A DNA stretch of 15,653 nt, taken from Rodentolepis nana. Lineage: Eukaryota; Platyhelminthes; Cestoda; Cyclophyllidea; Hymenolepididae. Numbering within the stretch: position 1 is the first letter of the stretch; each line of letters starts with the position of its first letter. Shown here in pieces: positions 2,618-15,653 of this stretch. The notes beneath the pieces were generated by a model. That model was not told where the DNA came from. It searched no databases and was given only the letters and a program-made list of their open reading frames with translations. The stretch is taken from assembly GCA_900617975.1 (NCBI GenBank), contig UZAE01014255.1:1-15653 (forward strand), given 5' to 3'. Made by a program: the position numbers and the translations under genes.

Positions 2618-2744
2618 ATTAATTTTTCTTTCAAAAAGGCAGTGCCGCTCTTTTTATTCAATCTTCATGTAAACACTAGAATATCCTATTTACAGATCTA
2701 TATCACTCCAAATCAAAATCGAAGTCAAATCGAAATGCCGAGTG

Positions 2745-2811
2745 ATAGACTTTTTGTCGTACAAAGATACGTTGTCCAGGGTGCACCACGTGGAGGTAAG
2801 TCTATCGCACA
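2745..2811 (-). ncRNA. HDV-like ribozyme remnant, inverted (copy E)
   Basis: On the minus strand: P2 ATAGACTT/AAGTCTAT intact, P3 ACC/GGT, loop TCCACGT, P1' GCACCCT, joint GGACAAC, P4 CGTAT-CTTT-GTACG, J4/2 ACAAAA. The 5' strand of P1 has lost its G run at the join with the coding fragment, so it should not self-cleave. Confidence 0.6.
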
Positions 2812-2812
2812 A

Positions 2813-3217
2813 TGCATGGACCGGCCGATGTCTTTGCACACAATGAAGGCCTTAATCAGAAGAGAATTCCAGACCTCAAGGTGCAACGAACTTAAAGCTC
2901 GAACAAATTAGAAACAGTGGGCAGTGGCACTCTCCGATATAGCCGACTGGCCAAGAATCGAAGCCGTTGCTGAGTTTAGACTACGTACCGGACACGATTG
3001 CTTGGCTAAACAACTTCACAGATTGGGAGAATACACTCAACCCACATGCTCCCTATGTAACCTACAGGAGGAAATGGAGAAGACCCACCTGATTCGATGT
3101 CCTGGCCTAAAGAAAAGGACGGAAAGCCAGAGATACTGGGAAGCAAGAAGACAGCTAATGAATTGCTATCAATTAACTGCTATAAATATACCCCCCTCCA
3201 ACCTTGGGGGAAGCTGA
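2813..3217 (+). pseudogene. C-terminal fragment of a non-LTR retrotransposon reverse transcriptase
   Basis: Decayed end of the pol-type ORF of a LINE-like element. One frame reads CMDRPMSLHTMKALIRREFQ, then a TAG at 2909-2911, then on in the same frame through ADWPRIEAVAEFRLRTGHDC and LAKQLHRLGEYTQPTCSLC to RYWEARRQLMNCY. It contains a C-x2-C-x9-H-x3-C cluster (TCSLC..THLIRC), the zinc-knuckle-like C-terminal motif of many non-LTR elements. The second copy suggests the natural stop follows QLMNCY and that this copy reads on to TGA 3215-3217. The catalytic reverse-transcriptase core is absent. Clade assignment (I/Jockey/R1-like) is a guess from the motif style, common in arthropod elements. 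Confidence 0.8.
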
Positions 3218-3335
3218 AGTCAAAGTTTAAGGGCTAATGATAAATATCATAAAGCCTGCCATTTGAAAAAATATCACTTCATCCATTATTGCATTTTCTT
3301 AAAGGAGACATGACGAAGAACAAGCCTTACAGCCG

Positions 3336-3479: not shown

Positions 3480-4150
3480 TCGTCATCGAAGCAAGGGTGG
3501 GAGGAAGGGCGTGGGGGGAGGGGGAGGGTAGGGGGGGGGGTTGGTAGGTTTCGCGAAGNGGGGGGGGGGGGTTGGTAGGTTTCGCGAAGTGTACGACGCA
3601 CCTGCTTGCGCGTAGCGGAAGGACCAATTCACCACGGTGCGAGTATGCGAATTAAAAGAGAACACTAAAAGGGGGGGGGGATGGAGGGGATGGTGGCGCG
3701 TAACAGGTGCAAGAAAAGTGAAAGGCGATAAAATAGAGAAAGATGAGGAAATTGGATGGAGATTGAAGGAAGATGAAAGGTGAATGGAGAATGGGGAATA
3801 TTAAAGCGGCTTCGAAATATTTCAGACTGGGCGGACACACAAACAGCTTCGAGTTAAACACAAACGGACACATTCAAACGAGTAAAGAGGTTCAAGCGGA
3901 GAAAGAGGAGTAAGGGGGGGGAGGGGGGAGGGGGGAGGGGTAGTTTCAAATGAACAAAAGAGTGTTCGATAAATAAGACTTAGGGAGGCCGAATTCGAAC
4001 TAGCAGGTACGTGAGGTGAAGGAGTTCGGAAAGTTTGGAGGGAGAAACATCACGAAGCTAAGAGCGTTTCATGGCGCGCAGCGTCTGGGTTGCAGAGTGA
4101 GTGTTTTGGAGGAAGGAGGGGGGAGGGGGAAGAGAGTTTGAGATCAAGAA
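3480..4150 (+). repeat. Polypurine, G-run tract (G-quadruplex prone)
   Basis: About 670 bp of strong A+G asymmetry on the plus strand, with G runs of 5 or more near 3512-3540, 3560-3571, 3671-3680, 3914-3939 and 4108-4127. The stretch at 3914-3939 has four closely spaced G runs, the standard quadruplex pattern. The gene strand is correspondingly pyrimidine-rich. Confidence 0.7.
3531..3589. repeat. 28-bp direct duplication around the second N
   Basis: G run plus TTGGTAGGTTTCGCGAAG occurs at 3531-3558 and 3560-3589, split by N 3559. Same pattern as the large duplication: probably an unmerged overlap in a homopolymer-rich stretch. Confidence 0.8.
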
Positions 4151-4205: not shown

Positions 4206-4393
4206 TTAATAAAGACCACAGCCTCGAAGATTGTTCGCAATGATAACATCGGTCACTGCATCGAAGACGAATTGGATGTTATTGGTATCCGTGGCACAGG
4301 TCTGGTGACAGTAGATCTCCTTGTTCTGAGATCGATTCTTAGCCTCGAAGGAAGCTTGAATATAGATTGCCGCTTCCTCGTAAGTTTGCTTTC
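4206..4393 (-). CDS. GNAO1 (ortholog): Go-alpha coding exon 7 (C-terminus, stop)
   Basis: 188 nt, acceptor tttctag. It completes Gly294 and encodes residues 295-355, ending in TAA at 4208-4206. It carries [13 protein letters not shown] (base-binding loop) and the alpha-5 helix, which inserts into receptors, ending [12 protein letters not shown]. The Cys at -4 is the pertussis-toxin-type ADP-ribosylation site. The Tyr end and NNLRGCG are diagnostic of Go. Confidence 0.96.
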
Positions 4394-7300
4394 CTAGAAA
4401 AAAACCATTCATTTTAGCGATATGATCCTTTTGGTAGTACTGCATCCGGTGGAAAGGAATCTCAACCCCAGGAACAAGGATATCGAACATCAGAATCAAT
4501 TTATAAACTAAGTCTATACAATATCCACCTTTTTTCCAAAAAAAACCACCATTTATCCAACTTTAAAAATGTGGTGCCTATATATGCAATCAATTTTGTG
4601 TTCTTAATATGTTGAAAGTCCTCCTGGCATTTTGGAATAGGGTTTCAAGACGATTTCAGGATGCCATTAAGGAATCAAGAAAGTTAAAATTTCCACTTCA
4701 TTTTCTTTAGTTACTCGGTACATAAGGCACTCTTGAACAGATTGCGAAATGAGGCAATCTAGGTAAAGTGTTCAATTAATTTTTTTGAAGGAGGTGTGCG
4801 AAAACTATTCTGTCAATCGTATAAAAAATTAATTCCATTTCAATTCGTCATTATAATTTCATGGTTATTATCAAAGGGCAAAAAATTTCCAAAGCCCTCC
4901 ATACGTTCTCCAGTTTAAGTAATTTAAAAGTATCTGAAACTGCACATGAGCATAACCCCTTTGGAGTTGTAGTAGTGTTTGTTTAAAAGAAGGGACATTT
5001 CTAATTAACTCCAAACACTAGGACACTCCGCCCCAGATGGCTATTCATTACTTAAACGCGCCAATTTACAACTACACTTTACTGTCTCGCGATTATGTCT
5101 CCGTTGGCAGTTAAACAAACACACATTGAACGGTGAAGGTGAATTTGGTTGAAGCGCAGAGAATCATTGGACCTACACACACCTACTATTAAAATAACGC
5201 TAGTTAAACAAGCAAAATTCTACTGGCATAACCAACTAATTAATGAAGTTGGCAAGTCAACTTTGAAACAGACAACTTGTAGGCAATGGAGATATTATTT
5301 TACAGTGTGAACATTCGGAGGACATGTAATATTCTTTATTCGCTACTTTTAAATAAAAATATCACATTAATCTGTCCTTACGTATTCACATGGAGACTTT
5401 TCCAACTTAGCCAACCTGCATTATAGGCCTAGAGCCAGATAGCAAAATCGATCGTTCAGGTTAATATTGGCATTTCAAATACGAGTTACCTGGCCCTCAT
5501 AATAATGGTAAAAGCGCAACATTTCAGAAATATTATCTTTGTGTAGATTAGGCAATAAAAGATTCTTCATAGTAATCTTGCTATGGTTATTGACTCATAA
5601 TAATTAATTTAACCAGTATGTTGGCGAGTCAATCTGAGCCTAAAGCTTTAGGTAATTGCGCAGTTGAAAGATTGGTTTTGACCAATTATATGCTCAAACG
5701 CCTTGTCTAAAGTTAAAAAAAAATTGCGTGTGCTTGTGAATTAGCAAATCATTATTTCGATCGATATAAAGCCATGCCTTGAGGGCAAATGGGGGTCTCG
5801 TAACTCCAACGTGTTATACTATATATAGACATCGAGGGGTGTGCGATAGACTTACCTCTACGTGGTGCACCCTGGGCAAGGTATATTCATACGGCAAAAA
5901 ATTCTATTACCTAGCAGTTGACTCTCACTTCAAACTACCACGACCCCCCTGGTTGTCATATTCGACCCCTATCACAGTACTCACCTTACCTTTTTCTCTA
6001 CCTTTGTGCCTGTCTGCCTCTTTTACATCTCTCAATCGCTCTTCTGTTCCCCACCCCTCGATTTTCTGCTACTTTGATGAACCTTCTCTCTGTGAAGCCC
6101 GAAGTCAGCTAAATGGCTAATGATATCTATCAAAACGCCTGCCATTTGATATAAATATATAGATATCGATCATGTGCAATGATGCAAGTAAGGATTCAAG
6201 CTAATCTTGAGTAACAAAGCCAGCATTTGGATATCCCATTTGATGGAAAATGGTAAGAGCTAGATTCCATTCTATTACCTTGGAATTCCTTAGATTTGAT
6301 ATTTAAGATTGGTAAATTCCGTTAGAAAGTACTTTGAAAGGCCGTGTGAAATACAGTGCTTCACGAATTCATGTTTGATTTACTGTATCCACTAACCCCA
6401 TCACATATTTCAATATCTAACCCCAATCCATTATTTTAAATTATCAAAACAATCGTGCATTCCGAGTTTAATAGACTGGGTGGCATTCTGATGCCTAGGC
6501 ATCGAGGTTCAGGACCCAGTGAAATCCTTCTATTTGGATAATCCATTCTAATAGGGTATTTGTATCGATATCCTTGATCTCAATTGATTACGACATAATA
6601 AAACGTAAGGTTCCTGTGAATATTTCACTAAACATCACTGTCATGAAGGCAGATAAATTGAAATAAACATTTAGAGCATCCAGATTAACAGGTGATTAGT
6701 CTGTATACATAAATTCAACACTACATCATCCACTAATTTTTTTGATCCAGTACCCAATTTTACTAATTGGATGTAATATAAAGATAATACTAACATTACT
6801 TTGGCCTTAACTCACCAGGATACTCTGGGAAGCAGACAGTGAGAGGCGAGCGTTTGATTTTCTCAGCAAAGAGATCCTTCTTGTTGAGGAAGAGAATTAT
6901 GCTGGTGTCGGTGAACCACTTGTTATTGCAGATGGAATCGAAGAGTTTGAGGGACTCCTGCATTCGATTGGTGGTCTCGTCCTCGTGAAGTACCTGGTCA
7001 TATTCACTCATGGCGACGCAGAAAATGATTGCTGTCACATCCTCGAAACAGTGAATCCACTTCTTTCGCTCCGAGCGCTGACCCCCCACGTCAAAGAGTC
7101 TAGAAAGGCAAGTATATATATACAGGAATGTGCGACAAATCTCCATTTTACATCCCAAATTTTAACTATTTTAATGAACCCGAACATGTCTTGAAAAAGA
7201 CTAATCATACGCACTTCGTATACTACTCAGAGTCATTTTAGTAGCTAACACATGATTATTGACAATCTTAATAAGACTTACTTGAAGTTCATATTCTTAA

Positions 7301-10300
7301 ACTGGAAGTGAACCTCCACAATGCCAGTAGTCTTAACACGTGTTCGAAGGATATCTTGTTCTGTTGGACGGTAGTCTTTCGCTCCCAGTCGATCAATATC
7401 GTCAAGGAAACTGGAGAAAAAGTAATCAACAAGAGAATTAAAAATTTACTATTTAGCAGAGTCGTTGAGCTGATATTCGTTGGATCGGACGAAGCATTGT
7501 TGCACCCCAGGATCGGCCCATAGGCGTTTCATAGCCTCTAAAAGCTCTTCTGAGAACGGTTCTGTATCTTGCATGGCTTGGATGACATCACTCACCACTC
7601 TTGCATCCTCGGGCTAGATGAAGACAAAATATCTCGGTCAACCAATCGAATTGCTTGGCAAATCAGAACTTACGCATTGGATGGGATCGCCAAACGGAAT
7701 GCCCAGAGTATTCATAGCACGTAGAATGGCGGCCATGGATTGGATGGTATTACTATAGACAACAGGTTTATGCTGCTTGTTATCTTCCTGCGTGAAACCA
7801 CCCTCATGAATAATCCTAAAGTAGAGTGGAATGGAAATTAATACAGGTGAATCTGAGGTTTATTGTCTTGCCTAAACAACTTCTTTCACAAGAAACACCG
7901 TATATTGCTCACTATTGCAGAAAATGGTTAAATCAACATGACATAACGAAGCAGAGAGAAAAAGAGGAACGATTTTAAGGGCAAATCAAATTTACTATTA
8001 AGAGAATTAAGTAGTATCTAATACAAACGAATTTGGAATATCTCTCTTCTAAACTTTAGTTGTCTAACAATCATTATTCCTCTGTTCGTAGCTTCACCTG
8101 CATGCTTTTAACTTGCCACACCTGAAAATGGATAACTTTCTTAACTCCAGATTTCGAATTTGTTAAAGTAACAGTCAAGTTATTTCGATAATAAGTAATG
8201 ATATGGTAGCTAAAATCAGTGATAGTAAAGAGAGAATTAAAAATTCGCCTTATGAGGGAATCATTTTTCTGAAATACCATTTCATACTCCCCCCCCCCCC
8301 CCCAGAGGACGCTTTAAGAAGTGTAACGGTCCTTTAGTCTATGCCCGCATATTTTCCCTCAACTACAAACTTATACCACAATGAGCAGAGTTTAGAATTA
8401 ATTGATTAATATGAAGTGTGTGCGCGATGGAAAATATTGCGACTTTGTTCTAATTATCTGCCTAATTGAGTTAGAGTCATTATTATATGAAGCGTCAAGT
8501 AATGGATACTTTACCCTCAGGGTGATTTCTTATTTATGTCCAAAAATATTCTGATTGGTGGTCAAATTAAATCCATTCGGCAGTGACTGACCTTCAGTTA
8601 TCGATCTGATAGGTAAATCTGCAAAGCGCTGTAAAGCATAAACAATCCTTATTGTTCTATTTAATATACTGTAGCTAATCATATAAACTGAGTAGACCAA
8701 TCATTTGCATTGAAAGTACAACGAATCCAGAATTCGCACGTTCAATATTTATCCGCACATTCATCACTAGGCTCAACTATGGAAACACTATTGGTAATTT
8801 ATACCAATTTCACTTGAATGTGGCGCGTTGAGAAGATATACTTTGGACAGAAATAAACAAGGAAATAATATTCATTAATCACTGTATTCAATATAATTTC
8901 CATTGAGTGGGAGGGGAGACGCGAATCGGAGACGTCTACGAAGGGCCTCCACACATCAAACTCTCATTTCTTGAAAATGTTGCGATGATTTAATCGGAAC
9001 TTTGGTTATAAGTTAGGTGGATAAAATAACATGTAGGTTGTAATTGGAGAGTGTGATTTGCATATAAATTTACGCTTGATTGCTCAATTTTCAAATATTC
9101 AACATGCCAATGGAACGATTGCTCCAATCCACTCGAAAATGGCAAAAGATTAAGCGTTGTTGATAGGATTAAAAGAGATGAGCTGTTCGTTGAATTGTAA
9201 TGAGTTTAAAACGTTTACGATTCCTTCCACCGCAGCCCTCTTCATCTACAATAATTTACTTTGTTCTCAAAAAGCTATTTGGCTGATTAATTTTGACTCG
9301 AGATAAAATTGTACCTAATTAATAGCTACATGGCTGTAGATAGAATCTCATTAATGTTTTTAGGTTTAATGGAGACAAACCCTAAAAATGAATTCTCCCA
9401 ACAATTTAAATGGTAAGATACAATTATCTTTAACTGTCACTGGACTTATTACAGTAGATTTAATCTAAGATCAAAATGTAAAGAGAACACCTTTATCTTC
9501 CATCTCCAATGTTAGTTTTTCACCGATCAATGATGATCTTTACAAATTCCGGATAAAAGTTGAATCACGAGTCTGTTTCTTCGCCCCTACTTAACAGGCA
9601 GAATAAAGAATGTGCAGTAAATCACAATAGGTATTTGGGATGAGTGGATGGAATTCCATTTCGGGATGCAAGTCCCACATCACTACCCACTCTAAGGGAA
9701 GAGAATGCATTTAATGCAAAGCGTGCGTGCGTGCATGCCTCCTTTCTCACTTCCTAATTGGTTGGCGTTGGTCCTATTTTTTAATCCCATGTCCTCTAAC
9801 TCTCCTCGCCGTGGTAACACCCGCGCGCCTGATCTATGACGCTAACACACGTTCAAGTTAACTCCCATACGGACTACCAGCTTACTCTTTCTGCCCAACC
9901 CCGAATGAGCCTTGAAACCACTTTGTTAAACCAGGCTCTTAGATCCGCAGTGTTTACATGTTTAAAAATGTCCCCAAATGAGGTCAAATTATTTGGTTAA
10001 TCTCCTTTTGAGAAAGTCATATGAGATATGGTGGGAAAAAATCACTTACTTCATTTGTTTCACTATAGTACTTTTGCCTGATTCACCAGCGCCTGAAATT
10101 GGGAGAGAAATTATGGATTATTGATTATTTTAACCGCAATCAGCCAATCAATAACTTGTTAAACCTAATTATTGATTAATTATAGAATAATTAATAAGTA
10201 TAGATCAATAATAATAATTATTATTATCATAGAATAATTACAATCGGGAATTCAGGGATATCTGAAATCGATTTCTCTATGTGTTTGCCTGAAATATCAT

Positions 10301-11553
10301 TCGCTTTTCTTTGCCTCACAGAGATGACTGCGCAGAAATGAGATGACAACAAACCGCTAAATATTCCTAACTTATTCAGGTGTTGAATTAGCATCGGGCA
10401 CAATGACGTAAGCAAATGAAATATGAGGTCGCTTTCGGGGATACCAATTCCAATTTTATTTCTAACCAACCAAACTAATAACAGGCGCTTAATTTAAATC
10501 TAAAGGAAAGACACACACAACTGTTATTTAGTGGGTAAGCTGAAAATAAGTTTCTCCGTTGATTTTCCACGTTAGATTTGAAGAGAAAGCGGGTATTTAT
10601 GGCTTTCGATTTTTCGAATTGCCTCCCGTTTACTAAGCCTCAGTATTAAAAACTAATTAAGTTTGCTTTTGAAGTGAAATGTTAATGTATTTAAATGAAC
10701 ATTAATGCGAAATAAATAGGTCAAAAACAGTGCATTTCAAATATGTGGTCGACTAGTTCCACCAAACTGTTTTGCAAAATCGCTATCGAAATGCAATCAA
10801 AAAAACCTGGGTGGTTTATTTGCCCACCTTGGGGGATAGGAAATTGCTAAGTCACTCTCTAGCATAACAAGTCCTGAAAATCTTGCCTCCTTCTGCTTAC
10901 CTATGCAAACACGTTGTCAAAACTTGAAGGAAAAATTATCGATGGTTCACATCAGACACACAAAGGTGAAAATTTTGCGCTTTAAGTTCTTACTCCACCT
11001 CTTGACTAGTTTAGAAAGTTGCTACACGATATTTGCCCGAAAGTGATTGGCTCCTAAATTGGTTAAAATAACAATATTGTTTGGAAATCGCAATCTTAAT
11101 TAGTTAATAATGAGGCGTCAATTTAATAGAATTAGTTAATCTGTTAAATCAACAGTAACGGTAACAATTAAAGTTGGTCAATATAGAATCCTAGAAGATT
11201 AGTCATAATGTAACCAACGATCGACTTGATGCATTGCGTAATTGACTAATTAACCTATTGGATTACTTGTGAACTGGCCTATGTCCACAGTGAATATATA
11301 CTTAAGAAATCGATTTGCTATATTATTCAAAGTTTAACTGTAGCTGATGTAATTTCTATCGCATTACTAAAACCAAACGACTTGTTTTAATAAGCACGAT
11401 GCAATCAGGAAGTTTAATATTTGTAACCGACGTACCAAGGAGCAAGAGTTTAACATCCTTAGCAGCCTGCATCCCATCTTCCTTGAGTTTTTTGTCAATA
11501 TTGCGACTCTGTTCTAAAGCGTCGCGTTCCTCCTTCGACAGCGTACATCCCAT
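4206..11553 (-). CDS. GNAO1 (ortholog): G protein alpha subunit, Go class (7 coding exons, complete)
   Basis: Alpha subunit of heterotrimeric Go: a membrane-anchored GTPase switch that couples seven-transmembrane receptors to ion channels and other effectors, mainly in neurons. Seven exons on the minus strand (11436-11553, 10050-10092, 7674-7815, 7450-7613, 7282-7410, 6816-7099, 4206-4393) join in frame through GT..AG introns to 355 residues (family about 354). Visible: Gly2/Cys3 lipidation signal in MGCTLS; P-loop GAGESGKST at 40-48; helical domain about 60-175; switch I RTRVKTTG with Arg180 (the conserved catalytic, cholera-toxin-type Arg); DVGGQ with catalytic Gln206; NKKD at 271-274; TCAT at about 325-328; C-terminal NNLRGCGLY with the pertussis-toxin-type Cys352. 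The tail separates Go from Gi, Gs and Gq. One extra residue lies near GDPIQCPEDA in the helical domain. No disabling mutation is seen. The gene is alone in the window. Exon coordinates were derived by hand from reading frame and splice consensus. Confidence 0.96.
5836..5907 (+). ncRNA. HDV-like self-cleaving ribozyme (copy F)
   Basis: Hand fold: P1 5836-5842 GGGGTGT with 5867-5873 GCACCCT; P2 5846-5853 with 5900-5907 (one mismatch); P3 ACC/GGT (5854-5856/5864-5866) with 7-nt loop TCTACGT; joint GGGCAAG 5874-5880; P4 GTAT-ATTC-ATAC 5881-5892; J4/2 GGCAAAA with the expected catalytic C at 5895. The nested double-pseudoknot layout and 72-nt length fit the family. The predicted cleavage site is immediately 5' of 5836, exactly at the end of the target duplication. 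Confidence 0.8.
5836..6154 (+). mobile_element. Short ribozyme-headed retroelement, copy F (full length, in intron 6)
   Basis: The clearest copy. Flanked by ATATATAGACATCGA (5821-5835) and ATATATAGATATCGA (6155-6169), a 15-bp target duplication with one mismatch. It begins exactly at GGGG of the ribozyme and ends GCCATTTGATATAA. The pyrimidine-rich body (about 5910-6090) has no coding capacity and no recognisable pol III A/B boxes. Orientation is opposite to the host gene. Length 319 bp. Confidence 0.9.
6475..6520. repeat. Nested inverted repeat in intron 6
   Basis: Outer 7-bp perfect stem ACTGGGT (6475-6481) / ACCCAGT (6514-6520). Inside is the 14-bp palindrome GATGCCTAGGCATC (6490-6503), whose left half can alternatively pair with GGCAT at 6482-6486. 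GGTTCAGGACC resembles a pol III B box, but no well-placed A box was found and the unit is too short for a tRNA. Confidence 0.6.
6816..7099 (-). CDS. GNAO1 (ortholog): Go-alpha coding exon 6 (switch II, NKKD)
   Basis: 284 nt, acceptor tttctag, donor gtgagt. It completes Lys199 and encodes residues 200-293. It contains switch II ([14 protein letters not shown], catalytic Gln206), switch III ([11 protein letters not shown]) and the guanine-specificity motif LNKKD. In vertebrate Gi/Go genes this stretch is two exons of 130 and 154 nt; their sum is exactly 284, so one ancestral intron is absent here. The next intron is 2422 bp. Confidence 0.96.
7282..7410 (-). CDS. GNAO1 (ortholog): Go-alpha coding exon 5 (switch I)
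   Basis: 129 nt, acceptor ctccag, donor gtaagt. It encodes residues 157-198 ([20 protein letters not shown] to HFQFKNMNF) and two bases of Lys199. It holds linker 2 and switch I (RTRVKTTG) with the catalytic Arg180 and the magnesium-binding Thr of that motif. The size matches the vertebrate exon. The next intron is 182 bp (7100-7281). Confidence 0.96.
7450..7613 (-). CDS. GNAO1 (ortholog): Go-alpha coding exon 4 (helical domain)
   Basis: 164 nt, acceptor catctag, donor gtaaat. It encodes residues 102-155 ([10 protein letters not shown] to [11 protein letters not shown]) and two bases of Tyr156. It contains the helical-domain core with the family motifs [10 protein letters not shown] and [13 protein letters not shown]. 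The following intron is 39 bp. Confidence 0.95.
7674..7815 (-). CDS. GNAO1 (ortholog): Go-alpha coding exon 3 (start of helical domain)
   Basis: 142 nt, acceptor ctttag, donor gtaagt. It completes Lys54 and encodes residues 55-101, from [11 protein letters not shown] to [10 protein letters not shown]. This is linker 1 and the first part of the all-helical domain. The size equals the vertebrate exon. The next intron is only 60 bp (7614-7673). The one-residue length difference from other Go proteins lies at the junction with exon 4. Confidence 0.95.
7816..10049 (-). other. Intron 2 of the Go-alpha gene
   Basis: 2234 bp, GT..AG. It contains a 15-base C run (8289-8303), a GCGT-type run with a CG-richer patch around 9720-9850, and otherwise AT-rich unique-looking sequence. 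No short-element copy, exon or RNA gene was recognised. Confidence 0.88.
8289..8303 (+). repeat. C15 homopolymer in intron 2
   Basis: Fifteen consecutive C on the plus strand (G on the transcript strand). Confidence 0.9.
10050..10092 (-). CDS. GNAO1 (ortholog): Go-alpha coding exon 2 (P-loop)
   Basis: 43-nt micro-exon with acceptor tttcag and donor gtaagt. It completes Gly40 and encodes [13 protein letters not shown] plus two bases of Lys54. It carries the phosphate-binding P-loop with Lys46 and Ser47. The same 43-nt exon occurs in vertebrate Gi/Go genes, which supports conserved gene architecture. It is too short to appear as an open reading frame of its own. The next intron is 2234 bp. Confidence 0.95.
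10093..11435 (-). other. Intron 1 of the Go-alpha gene
   Basis: 1343 bp, donor gtacgt, acceptor tttcag. AT-rich, with a perfect 20-bp AT palindrome at 10208-10227. No mobile element or exon was recognised. Confidence 0.88.
10208..10227. repeat. 20-bp perfect AT palindrome
   Basis: ATAATAATAATTATTATTAT equals its own reverse complement. It sits in intron 1 and is likely just a low-complexity cruciform-prone site. Confidence 0.8.
11436..11553 (-). CDS. GNAO1 (ortholog): Go-alpha coding exon 1 (N-terminal helix)
   Basis: 118 nt: 39 codons plus the first base of Gly40. It starts at ATG 11553-11551 ([10 protein letters not shown]) and ends CTT G before donor gtacgt. It encodes the amphipathic N-terminal helix, which binds G-beta-gamma and carries N-myristoyl (Gly2) and palmitoyl (Cys3) sites, and then beta-1 (KDVKLLLLG). 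The start is secure because MGCT is the universal Go opening. No alternative first exon of the kind known in fly Go was found by eye. The following intron is 1343 bp. Confidence 0.96.
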
Positions 11554-11558
11554 GATGT

Positions 11559-11585
11559 CTAAGGAGATTGGGAAAAGAAGGCCAC
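11559..11585 (-). promoter_or_regulatory. 3' splice acceptor 5 nt before the start codon
   Basis: Reading the minus strand, a pyrimidine-rich run (cttcttttcccaatctccttag) ends in AG at 11560-11559, and only ACATC separates it from the ATG. It matches a strong 3' splice site. An upstream 5'UTR intron or spliced-leader trans-splicing would both explain it. If the source is a flatworm, trans-splicing is a real option. No upstream non-coding exon can be proved here. Confidence 0.6.
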
Positions 11586-13291: not shown

Positions 13292-13591
13292 GGGGGTATG
13301 CGATAGACTTACCTCCACGTGGTGCACCCTGGGCAACGTATACTTGTACGACAAAAAAGTCAATTAACCGGCAGTTGACTTCTGGCTTCTAATTACTATC
13401 ACCCACTGTATGTCATATTTGATTACTTCCACAGTACTCACCTCACATTTTTTCTACCTTTGTGTCTGTCTCTTTTGCATCTTTGAAACATTCTTCTGTT
13501 CCCCCTCTCGACTTTTTGTCACTTTGATGTTCCTTCTTCTCTCTGTGAAGCCCCGAAGTCAACTAAGAGGCTAATGATAACTTATATAAAT
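13292..13591 (+). mobile_element. Short ribozyme-headed retroelement, copy G
   Basis: Full head, body and a tail decayed after GGCTAATGATAACTTATATAAATAA. Candidate target duplication TTATATTCAACA (13277-13288) versus TTATAATTCAACA (13609-13621). The 3' boundary is approximate. It lies about 1.7 kb upstream of the Go-alpha start, antisense to it. Confidence 0.85.
13293..13364 (+). ncRNA. HDV-like ribozyme (copy G, lightly decayed)
   Basis: P1 GGGGTAT/GCACCCT (one A-C mismatch), P2 13303-13310 with 13357-13364 (one mismatch), P3 ACC/GGT with loop TCCACGT, joint GGGCAAC 13331-13337, P4 CGTAT-ACTT-GTACG, J4/2 ACAAAA with C at 13352. Confidence 0.75.
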
Positions 13592-14131: not shown

Positions 14132-14466
14132 CTTTATTTATTTATATCAAATAGCAGGTGTTTTGATAGTTATCATTGGCCCATTAGCTGGCTTCGGGAT
14201 TCACAGAGAGGAGGAGGAACATCAAAGTGGGAAAAATTCGAATGGGGGGGGGGGGAACAGAAGAAGGATTCACATATGCGAAAGAGACAGACACAAAGGT
14301 AGAAAAAAAGGTGAGGTGAGTACTGTGGAAGTAGTCTAATATGACAGACAATGGGGTGATGGTAGTTTGAAGTGAGAAGTCAACTGCCAGTTAATAGACT
14401 TTTTTGCCGTATTAGTATACGTGGCCCAGGGTGCACCACGTGGAGGTAAGTCTATCGCACACCCCC
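14132..14466 (-). mobile_element. Short ribozyme-headed retroelement, copy H (full length)
   Basis: Reading minus: GGGGGTGTGCGATAG head at 14466, body with a C11 run, tail TGATAACTATCAAAACACCTGCTATTTGA then TATAAATAAATAAAG (motifs listed separately in order). Candidate target duplication ACGATGTCAAAT (14120-14131) versus ACGATGCAAAAT (14467-14478), two mismatches. No coding capacity. Confidence 0.88.
14394..14465 (-). ncRNA. HDV-like self-cleaving ribozyme (copy H, best preserved stems)
   Basis: P1 GGGGTGT/GCACCCT, P2 ATAGACTT/AAGTCTAT (8 of 8), P3 ACC/GGT with loop TCCACGT, joint GGGCCAC, P4 CGTAT-ACTA-ATACG (5 bp), J4/2 GCAAAA. All stems pair. The only departure from the other copies is A to C in the joint. 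Confidence 0.8.
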
Positions 14467-14750: not shown

Positions 14751-14856
14751 TAATATTTATTTATTTCAAATGGCAGGCTTTATGATATTTATCATTAGCC
14801 CTTAAACTTTGACTTCAGCTTCCCTCATGGGTGGGGGGTATATGTATAGCAGTTAA

Positions 14857-15651
14857 TTAATAGCAGTTCATTAGCTGTCTTCTTGCTTCCCAGTATCTCT
14901 GGCTTCCCGTCCTTTTCTTTGGGGCTGGACATCGAATCAGGTGGGTCTTCTCCATTTCCTCCTGTAGGTTACATAGGGGGCATGTGGGTTGAATGTATAC
15001 TCCCATTCTGTGAAGGTGTTTTGCCAATCAATCGTGTCCGGCGCATAGTCTAAACTCAGCAACGGCTTCGATTCTTGGCCAGTCGGGTATATCGGAGAGT
15101 GCCACTGTCCACTGTTTCTCATTTGCTATATCGAAGAGTGCCACTGTCCACTGTTTCTGATTCTTGGCTAGTCGGCTATGTCGGAGAGTGCCACTGTCCA
15201 CTGTTTCTCTTTTGTTCGAGCTTTGAGTTTGTTGTATGGTCTGGAATTCTCTCCTGATTAAGGCCTTCATTACATGAATTCTCTCCTGATTAAGGCCTTC
15301 ATTGTGTGGACTGTCCGATACGTAGTCTAAACTCAGCAACGGCTTCGATTCTCGCCAGCCGGGTATGTCGGAGAGTGCCACTGTCCACTATTTCTCCTCT
15401 ATGTGGTAGAGTGCCACTCTCCACTGTTTTTCCTTTGTTCGAACTTTAAGTTCGTTGCAATCGGAGAGTGCCACTGTCCACTGTTTCCCCTTTGTTTCCA
15501 CTGTCCACTGTTTCTCCTTTGTTCGAGCTTTGAGTTCGTTGGTAACATGAATTCTCTCCTGATTAAGGCCTTCATTGTGTGGATTCTGGAATTCTCCCCT
15601 GATTAAGGCCTCCATTGTGTGGTAAGACATCGGCCGGTCCATACATTGCAA
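14857..15651 (-). pseudogene. Non-LTR reverse-transcriptase C-terminal remnant with internal repeats
   Basis: From the 5' side: QCMDRPMSYHTMEALIRGEF, then several repeats of NELKARTKEKQWTVALSD interrupted by stops and frame changes, then DIPDWPRIEAVAEFRLCAGHD, a TGA where copy E has the TGC of HDC, then LAKHLHRMGVYIQPTCPLC and a CCHC-type ending, stopping after QLMNCY (TAA at 14859-14857). Clearly not functional. Homologous to 2813-3217; motif C-x2-C..H-x3-C retained in part. Confidence 0.75.
15090..15615 (-). repeat. Scrambled direct-repeat array inside LINE copy I
   Basis: Plus-strand units: CACTGTCCACTGTTTCT (seven exact or near copies between 15103 and 15515), GAATTCTCTCCTGATTAAGG (four, at about 15244, 15277, 15550, 15589) and CAGCAACGGCTTCGATTCT (two, about 15057 and 15334). 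All derive from adjacent parts of the normal coding region but occur in altered order and number. Confidence 0.85.
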
Positions 15652-15653
15652 AA

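Follow-up and report, generated by a model that had tools for sequence, protein, structure and literature searches.

The DNA analysed in this study, referred to as the window, is a contig of 15,653 bp (C4227) in the Rodentolepis nana assembly, and the genome searched was that assembly as a whole (107.1 Mb in 4,701 contigs). Hymenolepis nana is taken here to be a synonym of the host name. Cox1, on contig C1797, reads in the flatworm mitochondrial code, with AAA giving the N of its conserved DRN motif. A gene for a G-protein alpha subunit is situated at positions 4209-11560 of the minus strand, with two exons that match PF00503 (E values of 2e-55 and 2.5e-12). Between these exons, in a G-alpha intron and antisense to the gene, lies a complete short element (5836-6154, plus strand), composed of a ribozyme head, a body and a tail like that of a LINE. 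Elements of the same family were observed both inside and around the G-alpha gene.

On either side of the element at 5836-6154 lies a 15-bp target-site duplication, the two copies of which differ at one position (score 12.5). The 5′ copy, ATATATAGACATCGA (5821-5835, plus strand), ends at G1, the first base of helix P1, and the 3′ copy is ATATATAGATATCGA (6155-6169, plus strand; both in locus L001). The distance between the duplications, 319 bp, bears out the preliminary description of this DNA, in which a family of about 320 bp with a ribozyme at its 5′ end had been proposed. Two further elements, both on the minus strand, could be followed from G1 as far as the tail match extends. That of copy H (14147-14465) is 319 nt long with a weak duplication (score 7.5, against a threshold of 9), and that with its ribozyme at 2224-2296 (1976-2296) is 321 nt long with no clear duplication (score 6.5). 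On the plus strand, an element cut by the window edge retains the 3′ half of the ribozyme, the body and the tail (1-275; 49.3 bits with covariance model R1), and a headless body and tail are found at 883-1085.

The sequence at 1377-1820 is repeated as 1822-2265 across a single N at 1821 (300 nt are listed at 100% identity), and this repeat around a one-N gap is an assembly duplicate. A partial ribozyme match at 1765-1856 was created by that duplicate and was not counted as an additional copy. The N at 3560 is flanked by a repeat similar to the one around the N at 1821.

Four HDV-like ribozyme copies with the same nested double pseudoknot had been recognized in the preliminary description, and all four were aligned in register by the Rfam model RF02682 (HDV-F-prausnitzii). 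They are copy F in the element of the G-alpha intron (5836-5907, plus strand; 34.9 bits, E value of 0.0023, aligned over 5838-5907), a copy at 13293-13364 on the plus strand (36.3 bits, 0.0011), copy H at 14394-14465 on the minus strand (41.1 bits, 8.9e-5, aligned over 14394-14463) and a copy at 2224-2296 on the minus strand (32.4 bits, 0.0088). The layout given for them was likewise confirmed: a P1 that opens with a G.U pair, P2, a 3-bp P3 closing a 7-nt loop that starts with a pyrimidine, a GGGCAAC-like joint, P4, and a C in J4/2. The same description overstated the fold, as each of the four was found, on reading the sequences, to have a core defect. Copy F has a C.U mismatch in P2 and a G.G at the base of P4, and the copy at 13293-13364 has A.C in P1 and A.A in P2. 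Copy H has all of its helices complete, with GGGCCAC in place of GGGCAAC in the J1.1/4 joint, and the copy at 2224-2296 has the joint GAGCAAU and has lost one P1.1 pair. The count of four was also too low, as a fifth ribozyme, of the LINE type and with an eroded P1, had been missed at 2745-2813 on the minus strand (29.2 bits, 0.051), where the LINE leader follows it.

The consensus fold is as follows. In P1, GGGGUG(U/C) pairs with GCACCCU; in P2, AUAGACUU pairs with AAGUCUAU; and in P3, ACC pairs with GGU around the loop UCCACGU. P1.1 consists of CC with GG, and P4 of CGUAU with AUACG or GUACG. The joint reads GGGCAA in the short element as against GGACAA in the LINE, and P4 is followed by a G, the catalytic C and a run of A. 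Positions such as G38, G39, C41 and A42 are named according to a mapping onto the HDV numbering that we assume.

In a cmscan comparison of the window with Rfam, the RF02682 alignment covered model positions 1 to 74 in register. None of the five window copies reached the RF02682 gathering score of 44 (E values from 8.9e-5 to 0.051). RF00094, the model of HDV itself, aligned weakly with two of the four copies first recognized, copy H among them, with E values of 0.13 (copy H, 33.4 bits) and 1.1. No Rfam match other than to ribozyme models was obtained in the window. Covariance model R1 gave copy F a score of 102.9 bits, copy F being itself among its training rows. When the genome was searched with RF02682, 61 of 25,212 first-look candidates were scored, 59 matched and 37 exceeded the gathering score. 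The best match had 54.5 bits, and E values went down to 1.1e-7. All of the best 12 of these 59 matches, which were read individually, belong to the present retrotransposon family, and the same search gave no match in any of 14 control genomes. The preliminary description had proposed a covariance-model search of window and genome as a check; matches were obtained in both, those in the window all falling below the cut-off.

For comparisons among copies, 80 distinct ribozyme cores were collected by a fuzzy search of fetched loci, with copies identical over 90 nt counted once (L088 with L086, for example). A strict structural descriptor was passed by 19 of these 80 copies and by six of the 12 RF02682 genome matches read. 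No window copy passed it, and neither did any shuffled sequence (300 made from the window and 100,000 from the common 72-nt form). A loose descriptor was rejected as too permissive, having given two window loci as against 49 matches in 100 shuffles (65 of them without any). The exact core pattern had no match in the prokaryotic or viral contigs searched. An Rfam run on 19 loci, with E values up to 0.5, gave HDV-like matches only in L009, L069 and L074, all from this family; that run also missed family copies known at those loci, and it says little about other LINE families.

The short element has its 3′ tail in common with a LINE family. A near-full-length copy of this LINE (C2663:19477-23603) starts with the ribozyme and, its own frames being broken, still matches PF14529 (endonuclease, 9.2e-16), PF00078 (reverse transcriptase, 1.6e-24) and PF00075 (RNase H, 2.9e-7). 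Another copy matches RVT_1 at 1.2e-32 and RNase_H (PF00075) at 1.1e-14. Judged by these domains, the LINE is an APE-type non-LTR retrotransposon with APE, reverse transcriptase and RNase H domains. The best named homologues of its reverse transcriptase outside tapeworms are spider proteins (Trichonephila, Caerostris) with 36-48% identity, named in their sources as transposon BS or X-element. Nameless ENA and JGI proteins are up to 68% identical to it. Close LINE proteins are also found in Hymenolepis microstoma.

A genome search with the LINE leader listed 40 places among 2,286 candidates, plus four second pieces. Besides the C2663 copy this gave 39 places, or 38 after L088 was dropped as a duplicate, all of them fetched because they match the leader. 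In all 38 heads the ATG region lies 99-104 nt from G1 (at 103, counted from zero, in 29 of them), and 28 remain open for 45 codons after it. Intact heads continue into ...LQWNAGG..., a motif that we take to be the start of the endonuclease. The ribozyme thus occupies about 72 of the approximately 103 bases of the leader.

Parts of the LINE are also present in the window. A 3′ part, comprising the RNase H/C-terminal end and the 3′ tail (2810-3271, plus strand), belongs to the same insertion as the inverted head at 2745-2813. Together they are situated between ATATCACTCCA (2700-2710) and ATATCACTTCA (3271-3281), with a duplication score of 8.5. Since an inverted head and a 3′ part between two repeats is the form expected from twin priming, the insertion at 2700-3281 looks twin-primed. 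A similar inverted head stands beside a LINE in L072, and inverted heads are found farther away in L070 and L071. A second, rearranged 3′ part runs off the window (14761-15653, minus strand); its own pieces are repeated and shuffled several times.

In comparison with the C2663 LINE, the short element at 5836 matches over nt 4-96 (80.6%) and in the tail over nt 259-312 (77%), while the body between them (approximately nt 97-258, about 160 nt) gave only chance-level matches to this LINE copy, the one compared. As read from these alignments, the short element joins three parts: the 5′ leader of the LINE, a body of some 160 nt unrelated to it, and the LINE 3′ tail. Derivation from the LINE by internal deletion alone does not account for the body, for which the one LINE copy compared offers no convincing counterpart. 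Nor is the element a SINE in the strict sense, in which a tRNA, 5S or 7SL head supplies an internal Pol III promoter. A B box is absent from the three short-element copies inspected, one of which has a weak A-box-like match, no tRNA was found in the window, and the body contains runs of four to seven T that would stop Pol III. Of the earlier term 'SINE-like', the interspersed family of about 320 bp therefore stands, but the element is better read as LINE-derived and similar to R2 SIDEs and NARTc, with pieces of the LINE in the same window.

The exact 62-nt core allele of the short element (P2 to P2′) occurs 548 times in the 107 Mb, and the corresponding LINE allele 14 times; reversed controls gave no occurrence of either. 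Total copy number can be estimated only roughly, at about 5,200 (548 x 19/2) or, from 22 heads in 182 kb, at about 12,900, the latter figure being biased because the loci were chosen for LINEs.

The element boundary is visible in the conservation of the copies. In the numbering used, positions -16 to -9 immediately precede P1 and positions -8 to -1 run from G1 on. In the larger of two groups (57 copies), information content was 0.04-0.26 bits at -16 to -9 versus 0.88-1.63 at -8 to -1; in the smaller (20 copies), it was 0.01-0.28 versus 0.81-1.71. The group labels, which serve this count alone, were loose, and three of the 80 copies were unlabelled. Still farther from G1, between -17 and -26, individual positions rise to 0.5 and 1.0 bits, an effect of A/T richness. 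As many of the 80 copies had been fetched for matching from G1 onward, the count was repeated with 22 copies that were met incidentally, and these gave the same step in weaker form (0.02-0.46 versus 0.44-1.3 bits).

Target-site duplications were scored in 36 head-tail pairs, all of which were kept although some include spurious tail matches, and a flank repeat score of at least 9 was taken as clear. A clear duplication was found in 14 of the 36, as against 2.2% of mismatched flank pairs, and the other 22 had none. The duplication ends exactly before G1 in ten of the 14 clear cases; the offset of L055 was counted as 2 and not as zero, its core match having started two bases early. One of the two LINE copies tested also has a duplication ending at G1. 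A 22-of-22 duplication at a LINE copy on C4476 was discarded, the same stretch having been found twice; the true tail of that copy gives none. Because the clear duplications mostly stop exactly before G1, the RNA that underwent reverse transcription usually had G1 as its first base wherever the junction is readable, and G1 is also the base with which the predicted cleavage product starts.

Of the 80 copies, 76 were aligned; a broken copy in L046 and three tandem-array copies in L062 were left out. The catalytic-C column is C in 71 of the 76, the cleavage pair at G1 is GU in 65, and the joint nucleotides are retained in 72 (G38), 71 (G39), 73 (C41) and 73 (A42). Over 25 pairs and 1895 cells, 92.3% are paired versus 31-50% with slid partners, a result that is favoured by the structure having been drawn from the same sequences. 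Shuffling within the columns gives as high a share (92.4%, 76 copies). Two-sided, compensatory changes were seen in three cells, as against a shuffle mean of 3.1, the 76 near-identical copies affording little power. The preliminary description had looked to compensatory changes in P1-P4; no excess of them was found, and the copies are too alike for the test to have power. Double-sided changes being no commoner than in shuffles, covariation was rejected as proof of the fold. A compensated P2 pair had been suggested by a single copy, L107, and was rejected in turn: exact genome counts for one P2 pair, in the commonest background, were 548 for the parent, one and six for the single changes and none for the double. 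In these alignments covariation lends no support to selection on the fold, and its absence is what would be expected of copies that descend from few recent sources and are eroded without selection. Forty-one exact core matches have in common an A-to-G change on the 5′ side of P2 and may form a subfamily; it was this group that L107 had made look like a compensated pair.

Taken together, these data make it highly probable that a 72-nt HDV-like self-cleaving ribozyme makes the 5′ ends of two linked retrotransposons, and that the LINE protein copies the short element in trans. Copies would be transcribed by read-through inside longer host transcripts, where the ribozyme would fold and cut just before G1 (GGGGUG...), freeing an RNA that starts with the ribozyme. 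In the LINE RNA, about 103 nt of leader would precede an ORF that encodes endonuclease, reverse transcriptase and RNase H. The LINE protein would recognize the common 3′ tail and insert the RNA of either the LINE or the short element by target-primed reverse transcription. The ribozyme would be retained in the product, each full-length copy carrying its own 5′-end maker, so that such copies would need no Pol III promoter. The basis of this reading is the fold, the model match, the position, the common head and tail, the duplications ending at G1 and the copy number. The reading is made less secure by the absence of covariation, a paired share no greater than that of column shuffles, the core defects and below-cut-off Rfam scores of the window copies and the 22 of 36 pairs without a clear duplication.

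The strongest rival to the ribozyme reading is transcription starting at G1 from an internal promoter in the conserved head, with the HDV-like fold inactive or secondary. Transcripts initiated at G1 would leave the boundary just as sharp and the duplications unchanged, and the trypanosome Pr77 sequence is reported, in the portion of PMC8190864 consulted, to activate transcription, and in that of PMC4035085 to hold a ribozyme as well. We nevertheless consider this improbable; it leaves unexplained why the full HDV-like architecture, core nucleotides included, is located exactly at G1, and promoter and ribozyme functions may in any case coexist. The ribozyme might instead have worked in an ancestor, with present copies amplifying without cleavage. 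The core defects in all window copies, the small number of sampled copies that pass the strict descriptor (19 of 80) and the lack of covariation are what such a relic would leave. Decay after insertion is expected, however, and the 548 identical, intact-looking 62-nt core alleles, with the 14 LINE alleles, point to recent spread of unbroken forms, so that a relic also seems unlikely.

That the helices are a by-product of conserved repeat sequence is, in our view, extremely improbable. All copies are homologous and hence amount to one observation, their pairing does not exceed that of column shuffles, and the loose descriptor found its 49 matches in 100 shuffled windows. Against this stand the Rfam E values (as low as 8.9e-5 for the window and 1.1e-7 for the genome as a whole), the absence of any strict match in 100,000 shuffles and the coincidence of the fold with the first base of the element. 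An ordinary Pol III SINE that merely took a LINE tail would have the length, the copy number and the common LINE tail observed here, all of which are SINE-like. Such an origin is nonetheless very improbable for an element whose head is the leader of the LINE, given three copies without a B box, a single weak A-box-like match, T runs of four to seven in the body and no tRNA.

A broader interpretation of the ribozyme reading is possible, though we think it less likely than not: the short element may represent a promoterless, genome-wide class of short retrotransposon in which a ribozyme borrowed from a LINE replaces the Pol III promoter, and several thousand insertions may form self-cleaving switches across tapeworm genes. 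If so, any transcribed insertion site would feed new copies, and intact sense copies in introns would cut host pre-mRNAs.

The tapeworm pair can be compared with several known systems. According to the sections of PMC3414825 that were consulted, Drosophila R2 SIDEs are rare elements that combine a 5′ ribozyme with a LINE 3′ end. They resemble the tapeworm element in their HDV-like 5′ ribozyme and LINE 3′ end, and are stated there to be moved in trans by the LINE from read-through transcripts. The same sections place them in rDNA and treat them as internal deletions, whereas the tapeworm copies are scattered and one allele alone accounts for 548; unlike in R2 SIDEs, head and tail are separated by a body of about 160 nt. 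Among trypanosomatids, L1Tc/NARTc and SIDER have one Pr77 ribozyme head common to LINE and short elements, and several of these cleave, as given in the portion of PMC4035085 consulted. A LINE and short elements with one ribozyme head in common are likewise present here; the trypanosomatid elements are those of a protist, in the ingi/L1Tc clade.

The ribozymes of R4, Dong, baggins, L1Tc and RTE cut at the 5′ end of the element, and planarian R2 is placed in the R2 ribozyme series, in the part of PMC3774820 consulted. Like R2, R4, Dong, baggins and RTE, the tapeworm LINE is a non-LTR element headed by a ribozyme, with the cut predicted at that 5′ end. R2 is stated in that part of PMC3774820 to cut inside 28S rRNA in most species, in contrast to the tapeworm LINE, an APE/RNase-H element at scattered sites. 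HDV-F-prausnitzii (RF02682), the best covariance-model match over all 74 positions, is a bacterial ribozyme, and the window copies lie under its cut-off. The schistosome hammerhead SINE is a ribozyme-bearing non-autonomous retroelement. Retrozymes with hammerhead ribozymes are described as such elements of animals in the section of PMC7229834 consulted; both bear a ribozyme, as the tapeworm short element does, but of a different class.

In the open-licence literature, a scope outside which most subscription papers and Repbase fall, no paper was found that combines 'ribozyme' with 'Hymenolepis' or 'HDV-like ribozyme' with 'flatworm', and no tapeworm case of such a ribozyme was among the matches listed there. 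The preliminary description had considered a SINE with an HDV-like ribozyme to be new for a flatworm; within the literature covered, this stands for the tapeworm short element and not for flatworms at large, a planarian R2 ribozyme having been published (in the part of PMC3774820 consulted). In relation to the known pairs of ribozyme-bearing LINEs and SIDEs, two features are unusual: the scale on which the family occurs, and a head and tail that are separated by an unrelated body. The partnership of a ribozyme LINE with a ribozyme SIDE, known in trypanosomes and fly rDNA, would thereby be extended to a parasitic flatworm, in a form that has multiplied widely, in contrast to the rare SIDEs of flies. 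The sites of hundreds of identical natural alleles, and of many decayed alleles, are known, which offers a means of testing whether loss of cleavage stops amplification, and the same set allows one to ask what intronic ribozymes do to the genes that carry them.

Departures from the standard form of the short element were seen at two loci. Several ribozyme heads stand in tandem, joined within the element, at 2465-2785 of L062 (minus strand). In L124 (C2412:26440-26560), the ribozyme of a short element is followed immediately by part of another ribozyme head, as a template jump would produce.
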